Shown piece after piece: positions 61,779-64,000 of a stretch of 64,000 nt of DNA. The translations under genes were made by a program, and so were the position numbers. The notes beneath the pieces were generated by a model. The model worked only from the letters and a program-made list of their open reading frames with translations, did no database searches and had not been told where the DNA came from. This DNA is from Microvirga arsenatis (lineage in GTDB: Bacteria > Pseudomonadota > Alphaproteobacteria > Rhizobiales > Beijerinckiaceae), in NCBI RefSeq assembly GCF_009910705.1, contig NZ_JAAAXJ010000004.1:124001-188000 (forward strand), written 5' to 3'. Position 1 is the stretch's first letter. Every line of letters starts with the position of its first letter.

Positions 61779-62984
61779 ATGGCGAAACTATCGACGCTCC
61801 GCTGGCTGGCTCTTGGAGGGGCGCTCGCCCTCGCAGCCCCGGCGGCTCAGGCGCAGCAGCCTCCGATCAAGCTCGGCGAGCTGAACTCCTATGCCCAGTG
61901 GGCGGCCTTCACCGTGCCCTACCGCAACGGCTGGCAGATGGCCCTCGAGGAGATCAATGCCAAGGGCGGGGTGCTCGGCCGGAAGATCGAGATCGTCTCC
62001 CGCGACGACGGGGCGACCACCGGCAGCGCCACCCGCGTGGCGGACGAGCTCGTGAGCCGCGAAGGCGTCTCGCTGCTCTTCGGCTCCTTCCTGTCGAATG
62101 TCGGCGTCGCCATGGCCGACTTCGCCAACCAGAAGAAGATCGTCTACATCGCCGCCGAGCCGCTCACCGACGCCGTCACCATGGCGCAGGGCAACCGCTA
62201 TACCTTCCGCATCCGGCCCAACAACTTCATGCAGGTCAGCATGCTGGTGGACCAGGCCAAGGTCTCGGGCGCCAAGCGCTGGGCCATCGTGGCGCCGAAC
62301 TACGAATACGGCCAGTCGGCCGCCGCCGTGTTCAAGCGCCTGATCCAGGAGCGGGTGCCGGGCGCCCAGATCGTCGCCGAGCAGTACCCGGCGCTCGGCA
62401 AGATCGAGGCGGGGCCCACCGCGTCGGCCATCGAGCAGGCCAAGCCCGACGGCATCTTCAACGTGCTCTTCGGCCCCGATCTGACCCAGTTCGTGCGCGA
62501 GGGCAACACCCGCGGCCTCTTCGAGGGCGCGACGGTTCTCTCCCTGCTGACCGGCGAGCCCGAATGGCTCCTGCCGCTCAAGGACGAGGTGCCCGAGGGC
62601 TGGACCGTGACCGGCTATCCCTGGGACGAGATCAAGGAGCCGAAGCACAAGGCCTTCATCGATGCCTACCGCGCCAAGTACAACGAGACGCCGCGCCTCG
62701 GCTCGCTTCTCGGCTACATGGTGGTCACCATGATCCGCGACGCCATCGAGCGCGCCGGCTCCACCGAGACGGAAGCCGTCATCAAGGCGCTGGAGGATGC
62801 CAAGTTCGACACGGTCATCGGCCCCGTCACCATGCGCGGCATCGACAATCAGTCCACGATGGGCGCCTGGGTCGGCAAGCTCGTGCTGAAGGGAGCAACC
62901 GGGGGCATGACGGACTGGACCTACAAGGACGGCGCCTCGTTCATGCCCACCGAGGCCGAGGTGAAGGCGGTTCGGAAGGATTGA
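61779..62984 (+). CDS. Branched-chain amino-acid-type ABC transporter substrate-binding protein
   Basis: A 401-aa periplasmic protein with a signal peptide (LRWLALGGALALAAPAAQAQ) and the LivJ-type Peripla_BP_6 fold: KLGELNSYAQWAAFTVPYRNGWQMALEEINAKGGVLGRKIEIV and SLLFGSFLSNVGVAMADFANQKK. It should bind an amino acid, amide, short carboxylate or urea-like solute. A LivH-type permease gene follows, but only after an inserted DUF559 gene in its repeat pair. AAGGG precedes the ATG. The adjacent amidase hints at an amide ligand, which is inference. Confidence 0.9.
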   Translation: MAKLSTLRWLALGGALALAAPAAQAQQPPIKLGELNSYAQWAAFTVPYRNGWQMALEEINAKGGVLGRKIEIVSRDDGATTGSATRVADELVSREGVSLLFGSFLSNVGVAMADFANQKKIVYIAAEPLTDAVTMAQGNRYTFRIRPNNFMQVSMLVDQAKVSGAKRWAIVAPNYEYGQSAAAVFKRLIQERVPGAQIVAEQYPALGKIEAGPTASAIEQAKPDGIFNVLFGPDLTQFVREGNTRGLFEGATVLSLLTGEPEWLLPLKDEVPEGWTVTGYPWDEIKEPKHKAFIDAYRAKYNETPRLGSLLGYMVVTMIRDAIERAGSTETEAVIKALEDAKFDTVIGPVTMRGIDNQSTMGAWVGKLVLKGATGGMTDWTYKDGASFMPTEAEVKAVRKD

Positions 62985-62994
62985 CGTGCTTTCA

Positions 62995-63043
62995 CCCTCC
63001 CCTTGAGGGGGAGGGTCGGCGCGCAAGCGCCGGGGTGGGGTGG
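62995..63043. repeat. Left inverted repeat flanking the DUF559 gene
   Basis: This 49-bp element starts with the palindrome CCCTCCCCTTGAGGGGGAGG and contains a second hairpin (GGCGC-GCAA-GCGCC) before a G-rich end. Its reverse complement matches the element at 63444-63490 at every position apart from the middle loop. Confidence 0.92.
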
Positions 63044-63064
63044 CACCGCAACAGAAAACCGGTC

Positions 63065-63493
63065 ATGTCGAACATCAACCGCTTCAGACGTGAGAGAGCA
63101 GGACAGCTTCGCTCGAGCGCTACCGAGCCGGAGCAGGTTCTCTGGCGCGCCCTGAAGCGCATCCCCGTCTATGGCAGCCACTTCCGCCGCCAGGTTCCCA
63201 CCGGCCCTTACATCGCGGACTTCGCCTGCCTGAAGGCCCGCCTTCTCATCGAGCTCGATGGCGGCCACCATTCCCAGCAGAACATTGCCATCAAGGACGA
63301 AGCCCGGACCCGCTGGCTCGAAAGCGAGGGCTATCGGGTCGTCCGCTTCTGGAACACCGAGCTGACCGGGAATATGCCAGGCGTCCTCGACACCATTTAC
63401 GCGGCCTTGTATGGCTCGCCTCAATCGGAGGCGCTTGCGCTTCCCACCCCACCCCGGCCTGATGGCCGACCCTCCCCCTCAAGGGGAGGGTAA
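63065..63493 (+). CDS. DUF559 domain protein (Vsr/restriction endonuclease-like fold)
   Basis: A 142-aa protein with the DUF559 pattern: LRSSATEPEQVLWRALK, HFRRQVPTGPYIADFACLKARLLIELDGGHH and GYRVVRFWNTEL. The acidic residues in ADFAC and ELDGGHH match the PD-(D/E)xK nuclease core of Vsr-like enzymes. The last 19 codons lie in the right-hand repeat, giving a low-complexity Pro/Arg tail. The ATG at 63065 lies 22 bases after the left repeat. It interrupts an ABC operon between binding protein and permease, so it looks like an insertion. Nuclease activity is predicted, not shown. Confidence 0.85.
   Translation: MSNINRFRRERAGQLRSSATEPEQVLWRALKRIPVYGSHFRRQVPTGPYIADFACLKARLLIELDGGHHSQQNIAIKDEARTRWLESEGYRVVRFWNTELTGNMPGVLDTIYAALYGSPQSEALALPTPPRPDGRPSPSRGG
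63444..63490. repeat. Right inverted repeat flanking the DUF559 gene
   Basis: This 47-bp element is the inverted partner of 62995-63043. It ends in the palindrome CCCTCCCCCTCAAGGGGAGGG and has GGCC-TGAT-GGCC as the middle hairpin, the only part that differs. It ends seven bases before the permease start and contains the last codons of the DUF559 gene. Confidence 0.92.
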
Positions 63494-63496
63494 ATC

Positions 63497-64000
63497 GTGG
63501 ACCCCGCCTTCCTCGCCGTTCAAGCCCTCAGCGGCCTGTCCAGCGCCTCATCGCTCTTCATCACCGCCTGCGGCCTCACGATCGTTTTCGGCGTCACGCG
63601 GATCGTGAACTTCGCGCACGGTTCGCTCTACATGATCGGCGCCTACACGGCCGCGACCCTGATCCCGCGCCTGCTCGAACTCTCCTTCGGCCCCGTCACC
63701 TTCTGGGCCGGCATTCTCGCATCGGCCCTTGTGGTCGGGGTGATCGGCGTCATCATCGAGGTCCTGCTCCTGCGCCGCATCTACGGCGCGCCGGAGCTGT
63801 TCCAGCTGCTGGCCACCTTCGGCGTCGTGCTGGTGGTGCAGGACCTCGTCGTCCAGGTCTTCGGCCCCGAGGACATCTTAGGTCCCCGCGCGCCGGGCCT
63901 GCGCGCGCCAGTCGAGATCCTGGGGCGGCGCTTTCCCTCCTACGAGCTCGTGCTGATCGCCGCCGGGCCCATCGTGCTGGCCCTCGTCTGGCTTCTCCTG
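63497..64000 (+). CDS. Branched-chain amino-acid-type ABC transporter permease (LivH-like), truncated by the window
   Basis: The frame from the GTG at 63497 runs off the right edge after 168 codons. It shows the LivH-type start: LSGLSSASSLFITACGLTIVFGVTRIVNFAHGSLYMIGAYTA, then several TM helices and VLLLRRIYGAPELFQLLATFGVVLVVQD. This places it as the first permease of the operon whose binding protein is at 61779. Its start lies seven bases after the right DUF559 repeat, which now supplies the sequence before it, so its ribosome-binding site is partly repeat-derived (GGGGAGGG). Confidence 0.9.
   Translation, partial: MDPAFLAVQALSGLSSASSLFITACGLTIVFGVTRIVNFAHGSLYMIGAYTAATLIPRLLELSFGPVTFWAGILASALVVGVIGVIIEVLLLRRIYGAPELFQLLATFGVVLVVQDLVVQVFGPEDILGPRAPGLRAPVEILGRRFPSYELVLIAAGPIVLALVWLLL

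Follow-up and report, generated by a model that had tools for sequence, protein, structure and literature searches.

A DUF559 nuclease gene framed by triplex-type palindromes in Microvirga as a probable mobile unit

A DUF559 gene of Microvirga arsenatis, together with the inverted palindromes that bound it, probably constitutes a compact mobile unit in which nuclease and repeat are partners much as in REPIN-RAYT systems, but with an unrelated enzyme. The unit lies in a stretch of 64,000 nucleotides, here called the window. Comparison across genomes shows that nuclease and palindrome co-occur, that the two correspond in type and vary together along the nuclease tree, and that their copy numbers are linked; at one and the same intergenic position, related species differ by gain and loss of units and of gene-less pairs of repeats. 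From these patterns we infer that the nuclease itself may move the repeats and may read the triplex. The original prediction had suggested either that the unit is compact and mobile or that palindromes scattered through the genome originate from it; the comparisons support this, while the role of mover can be given to the nuclease only conditionally.

The unit occupies the gap between two open reading frames on the plus strand, a livJ-type periplasmic binding protein gene that ends at 62984 (61779..62984) and a livH-type permease gene that begins at 63497 and runs off the window (63497..64000). The nuclease gene itself (63065..63493, plus strand) encodes 142 amino acids and a stop codon, and is bounded by terminal inverted repeats, as in a classical insertion sequence. 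On both sides, the order from the outside toward the gene is a ACCCTCCCC-loop-GGGGAGGGT palindrome, a short hairpin and a GGGGTGGGG segment. The left outer palindrome, ACCCTCCCC-TTGAG-GGGGAGGGT (62994..63016, plus), consists of a pyrimidine arm followed by a purine arm; it is followed by an inner hairpin, GGCGC-GCAA-GCGCC (63018..63031, plus), at which other copies differ, and by the third strand GGGGTGGGG (63032..63040, plus), the predicted purine-motif reverse-Hoogsteen partner of the purine arm, which faces the gene. The right element is on the minus strand, with the third strand GGGGTGGGGT (63446..63455) again facing the gene, the variable hairpin GGCC-TGAT-GGCC (63456..63467) and an inverted copy of the left outer palindrome (63469..63491), which codes for the nuclease C terminus, RPSPSRGG. 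The inverted arms at 62991-63020 and 63465-63494 are 97% complementary over 30 nt, and those at 63029-63043 and 63444-63458 are 100% complementary over 15 nt. The 49-nt and 47-nt elements match except in the central hairpin, which is self-complementary in both despite its different sequence. No target-site duplication was found in the window, nor any exact match of 4 to 10 nt in 100 gene-containing units. The picture drawn in the original prediction is thus borne out by the arms and by the match to PF04480: a DUF559 gene framed by matching inverted palindromes between livJ and livH, two elements alike except in the central hairpin loop, a right repeat that encodes the C terminus, and no target-site duplication. 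In its strict form the palindrome is present in 8 copies in the host genome, versus 0 for a reversed-pattern control; among 48 Microvirga genomes the pattern reaches 10 copies per genome, with a control count of 0 in each. The nuclease stop codon is made of the last T of the repeat and the first two bases of the flank (T|AA, T|AG or T|GA) in 13 distinct liv-site units (63491-63493 in the window).

The window protein matches the DUF559 family (PF04480) with an E value of 2.1e-33 and 114.9 bits, against a cutoff of 20.6, which rules out a Y1 transposase as its enzyme; a PADLOC search gave weak matches only. E23, D52, E63, D65 and H69 are among the residues invariant in 29 aligned sequences. An AlphaFold2 model of the protein (mean pLDDT 77.5) was compared with solved structures by VIA-align, giving Z scores of 13.9 to N. 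gonorrhoeae 3hrl, 12.3 to the homing endonuclease I-Bth0305I and 10.1 to Vsr. Judged from this model, the DUF559 protein is a single-domain Vsr-like/homing-nuclease fold, and its fold makes nicking or cutting activity likely. The fold shares its conserved acidic and histidine residues with the Vsr-type and DUF559 proteins E. coli YcjD, Caulobacter VsrA and N. gonorrhoeae NGO0050 and with I-Bth0305I. The differences lie elsewhere: I-Bth0305I is a homing endonuclease, and the role proposed for VsrA is mismatch repair, with no flanking triplex repeats mentioned in the portion of the VsrA literature drawn on here (the string "palindrom" occurs 0 times). The fold also resembles Toxoplasma and Tetrahymena mitoribosomal proteins, with Z scores of about 9 (9i05, 9g6k and 6z1p in Foldseek and VIA).

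The flanking palindromes are, by sequence, class II intrastrand-triplex motifs of the BoxC/PIT/TM kind. Near DUF559 genes, a purine third strand follows the palindrome in 89% of 426 elements, versus 6% when flanks are shuffled, the rule being antiparallel pairing in which G of the third strand lies on G of the purine arm and A or T lies on A. This third strand covaries with the arm, matching its own arm at 0.990 versus 0.694 for an arm of another type (371 elements), and it faces the gene in 243 of the 369 elements that could be oriented. This succession, pyrimidine arm first, then purine arm, then antiparallel purine third strand, is that of class II motifs as described in the passages of the survey by Holder et al. 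(2015; PMC4666352) considered here. The window elements show the third strand by sequence, with a second loop (the inner hairpin) longer than the 1 to 6 nt of that survey's search. Palindrome types near DUF559 genes include CCCTCTCCC, CCTTCTCCC, CCTTCCCCC, ATCTCCCCC and ACCCTCCCC, and one family carries CCCCTCTTTGCTAAAGAGGGG; the outer ends read ACCC...GGGT, CCCT, CCTT and similar. Two Deinococcus loci (L367 and L369) have third strands directed outward, and there the inverted repeat extends outside the palindromes into flanking DNA, as though a hairpin had been the point of entry.

Association between gene and palindrome was measured in several samples. Across 51 loci with 10-kb flanks on both sides, element density is 6.4 per kb at distances of up to 100 bp from the gene and falls to 0.02 to 0.07 per kb in bins lying 1 to 10 kb away, a local enrichment of more than 100-fold. 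The original prediction had tied the mobile-unit idea to repeats being commoner near DUF559 genes than elsewhere, and this density agrees with it. A pyrimidine-armed palindrome lies within 300 bp in 196 of 212 distinct DUF559 loci, a set obtained from 228 domains by removing identical domain-plus-flank rows. Of these loci, 84 were chosen for their resemblance to the window protein, 38 came from the family of the host, 89 from a sample of the phylum and 1 from E. coli; the family and phylum sets, like the loci of the G200 family below, were drawn from best-scoring matches, and weak DUF559 relatives are under-sampled. In 14 of the other 16 loci a hairpin is present whose arms pair with no more than one mismatch, 2 of these hairpins being doubtful (L194 and L222); the last 2 loci have none (L004 and L082). 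One of these two, L004, is a divergent DUF559 gene (34 bits) of the window's own genome, near which no such palindrome was found; it may belong to another subfamily. Within the phylum-wide set, hairpins whose arms are at least 8 long lie within 200 bp at 81 of 89 loci.

The element closest to a gene on its left and the one closest on its right are alike, with a similarity of 0.924 versus a mean of 0.770 and a maximum of 0.806 in 1,000 shuffles (108 loci). The gene is not always within the pair, however, since at 55 loci both near palindromes are on one side. By a crude count based on open reading frames, both neighbors run in the direction of the gene at 132 of 197 loci with a readable frame on each side. 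In the family of genome G200, presumably the Pasteurellaceae, C/G-rich palindromes were found by reading within 300 bp at 21 of 28 loci, and 3 of the other 7 are on short contig ends. The association is present in three phyla, Pseudomonadota, Cyanobacteriota and Deinococcota: on plasmids of Synechocystis, Picosynechococcus, Pseudanabaena and Deinococcus, all 9 DUF559 loci examined, among 10 listed matches, have palindromes that overlap the gene or come within 250 bp of it, the examples at L361 and L363 being weak. In E. coli MG1655, imperfect triplex-type motifs lie at and beyond the 3' end of the DUF559 gene ycjD.

Repeat type follows the nuclease, as the original prediction had proposed to check. 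On a tree of 114 nuclease domains with the palindrome-encoded tails left out, seven repeat types require 29 changes (101 typed rows; the 13 without an assigned type are uncounted), versus a mean of 52.6 in free shuffles. The result is retained when shuffling is confined within host families, where the mean is 41.4 and the minimum 33, and 0 of 2,000 shuffles are as low as the observed value. Since the alignment is short, with few columns, and many forks are open, we claim clustering alone from this tree. Repeats are alike in 71 to 94% of pairs with more than 60% protein identity, versus 12 to 20% of pairs below 50%, and over all pairs repeat similarity correlates modestly with protein similarity (Mantel r 0.20, against at most 0.14 in permutations). 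Two DUF559 genes in one genome have alike repeats in 8 of 16 pairs, 7 of these 8 being less than 60% identical; because of these pairs and the modest Mantel r, host effects may contribute to repeat likeness.

Copy number is linked to the presence of the gene. We counted the pattern TCTCCC-N3-9-GGGAGA in 396 genomes of the phylum and found a median of 37.5 copies in the 120 genomes with a strong DUF559 match (E of at most 1e-20), 1 in the 45 with a weak match and 0 in the 231 without a match, with reversed-pattern control means of 0.97 in the strong group and 1.07 in the no-match group. At least 10 copies are present in 94 of the 120 strong genomes versus 16 of the 231 without a match, a contrast that excludes the 45 weak genomes (median 1.0; 8 of 45 with at least 10 copies). 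There are exceptions on both sides: the 16 repeat-rich genomes without a match reach up to 136 copies, and 12 of the 120 strong genomes have fewer than 5, 3 of these 12 belonging to a family with another repeat type. Within 15 mixed families selected by hand (183 genomes), the mean difference is 10.6-fold, above all 5,000 within-family permutations (p<0.0002).

The link is also seen with other repeat types. The type of the G200 family, first noticed within the family itself, at L195 and L255, has a median of 10 copies in 44 genomes with strong DUF559 versus 0 in 48 without (p=5e-8), and at least 5 copies in 30 of the 44 versus 8 of the 48. For most repeat-rich genomes of this family without the gene, genomes of the same genus with the gene exist, which suggests recent gene loss. 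Several of the family's DUF559 genes are shortened or interrupted by stops, which suggests repeated gain and decay. Among the 48 Microvirga genomes, the window's repeat type occurs in 17 of 18 with that nuclease lineage versus 7 of 30 without. All these counts include the gene's own flanking repeats, roughly two for each gene; this has weight in Microvirga, where counts are low, and to some degree in the G200 family. After removal of two copies per gene, 15 of the 18 nuclease-bearing Microvirga genomes keep copies.

The liv site shows the unit present in some relatives and absent from others. livJ-livH DNA is present in 48 of 48 Microvirga genomes, weakly in three, and the site could be placed on a tree of its livJ/livH flanks for 44, leaving out three with a short livJ match (L191 to L193) and one at a contig end (G153), whose unit is counted among the 13 distinct liv-site units. 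The site is empty in 27 of the 44, holds a DUF559 unit in 12 and a gene-less pair in 4, and is mixed in 1; these states require at least 12 changes on the flank tree. The original prediction had made the mobile-unit idea depend on empty orthologous sites, and they form the majority here. The intergenic gap measures 13 to 59 bp when empty, 508 to 526 bp with a DUF559 unit, 173 to 179 bp with a gene-less pair, whose repeat type differs from that of the unit, and 271 bp with a single repeat plus a pair. Nine empty alleles of 13 bp (L144 to L152) contain no palindrome. Part of this mosaic could come from homologous recombination between strains.

Related units, with up to 89% protein identity to that of the window, occupy a second Microvirga site, whose flanks we take from their protein sequences to be glyQ and glyS. 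The flanks of the two sites are unlike, and homology ends at the outer palindromes, the left one (62994..63016) forming the outer limit. Gene-less pairs are dispersed as well: inverted pairs of the window type, spanning 130 to 166 bp, were found at 9 of 20 gene-less Microvirga loci, and one such locus (L341) carries the exact right end of a gene-bearing unit. In other Microvirga genomes, residues 117-142 have short matches that were considered as gene remnants and rejected; they are not counted as such because they read as the right-end repeat in frame. In Deinococcus, DUF559 genes lie at three different junctions of the hpa operon in three species and in the paa operon of a fourth. In E. coli, the ycjD region is covered at 80% or more in 3,364 of 5,426 genomes, and strains without ycjD have short repeat matches elsewhere in the genome. 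A clean empty ycjD site was not obtained, as the two ycjD-less strains inspected carry another operon by fabI; in these strains (L336 and L337, 3141-3619) a TetR/RND efflux operon next to fabI replaces ycjD-sapF.

The closest known parallel is REPIN-RAYT. Both systems have short palindromes, often in inverted pairs, dispersed between genes, and in both these palindromes also flank the gene of a nuclease. The enzymes differ, since RAYTs are Y1-type (HUH, PF01797) single-strand transposases and the window encodes a Vsr-like PD-(D/E)XK nuclease. The repeats differ as well: the window element is of the triplex kind and includes a third strand of the GGGGTGGGG type. The GTAG or CGTC tag of most REPs, as named in PMC3733652, is absent from the outer ends of the DUF559 palindromes. 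With its PF04480 match, Vsr-like fold and dispersed gene-less pairs, the arrangement supports the earlier likening of the window to a RAYT/REP system with a Vsr-like nuclease.

BoxC/PIT/TM motifs, in contrast, share the repeat. In the passages of the survey by Holder et al. (2015; PMC4666352) drawn on here, such motifs are reported from more than 260 genomes, triplex formation in vitro was shown for an E. coli motif, and five cases of two motifs in an inverted pair are given among 23 E. coli BoxC/PIT motifs. The same passages state that no mobility activities were found near the motifs, call mechanism and origin unanswered, and mention neither ycjD nor an endonuclease. A search of open-licence PMC papers found no link between DUF559 and triplex repeats.

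How such a unit might work can be outlined. The gene-bearing unit would be the autonomous form and the gene-less inverted pairs of about 130 to 165 bp its non-autonomous counterparts. The nuclease would recognize its own palindrome, probably as a hairpin or triplex in single-stranded DNA, for example on the lagging strand, and might nick at the foot of the palindrome; host repair would then join the freed or copied strand to another intergenic position, leaving no duplicated target. Because units are mostly co-oriented with the flanking operon genes, those inside operons could be expressed by read-through. We put forward more tentatively, and as somewhat short of an even chance, that DUF559 units form a separate class of transposable element, with a Vsr-like PD-(D/E)XK protein as sole enzyme and triplex palindromes as ends, and that they have non-autonomous derivatives, recognized in triplex form, namely the BoxC/PIT/TM repeats found in Pseudomonadota, Cyanobacteriota and Deinococcota.

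The main rival reading, conceivable though unlikely, is that DUF559 is instead a free-standing homing endonuclease that invades palindromes spread by other means and is copied into the cut sites at repair. I-Bth0305I is among the closest solved folds, cutting specificity would likewise make repeat type follow the protein tree, and the units are polymorphic at a fixed site, liv. However, genomes without DUF559 are mostly free of repeats (median 0; at least 10 copies in 16 of 231), so the repeats seem not to spread without the gene; moreover, the nine 13-bp empty liv alleles have no palindrome, and entry into an existing repeat is not needed there. A Vsr-like fold would also suit a host repair or regulatory nuclease, acting in VSP-type mismatch repair or in triplex removal, with the palindromes as operator or processing sites. 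This we consider quite improbable, as it leaves unexplained the tens to hundreds of copies per genome, the matching of repeat type and the presence or absence of the unit at one site.

Many of the palindromes are at gene ends, where ordinary terminators might be expected, and the host genome has one partial Y1_Tnp match that could point to repeats moved by a RAYT/IS200-type Y1 enzyme, with DUF559 nearby by chance. The local enrichment of more than 100-fold, the matching sides and the third strand lead us to reject chance or terminators as the origin of the association, and the Y1_Tnp locus has, in the 3.2 kb examined, a hairpin of another kind only and no pyrimidine-armed palindrome. Both forms of this explanation are thus very improbable, and a mobile partnership of nuclease and triplex repeat is the reading that we prefer.

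Known since the 1990s, BoxC/PIT/TM repeats abound in many bacteria, and the survey of them, in the passages considered, assigned neither an enzyme nor an origin (PMC4666352). DUF559 is a candidate for that enzyme, and a family described as a "protein of unknown function" would thereby gain one. The presence of DUF559 in E. coli K-12 (ycjD) and in Caulobacter (vsrA) makes the question testable in laboratory strains, and the finding would suggest another reading of VsrA-dependent DNA damage. It would also add an unrelated enzyme class to the principle of a repeat with a dedicated nuclease known from REPIN-RAYT; should the enzyme be shown to move the repeats, the units would be a class of their own, sharing that principle with an enzyme and a repeat that are both unrelated.

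Several DUF559 genes have other neighbors. In the genome of the window, a second DUF559 gene (L001, 1350-1860) lies between pheS and pheT, overlapping the start of pheT (ATGA), with a pair of palindromes upstream. DUF559 adjoins pheS also in other genera (L016, L018 and L021), and beside pheS, in at least four genomes, it looks long retained. On cyanobacterial plasmids (L365, 1379-5312; L362, 1674-5081; L361, 1822-4346), DUF559 is embedded in, or lies between fragments of, genes of DNA methyltransferase type (Eco57I/PglX type, DUF1156), and on one such plasmid it lies in frame within an open reading frame of at least 1,311 amino acids.
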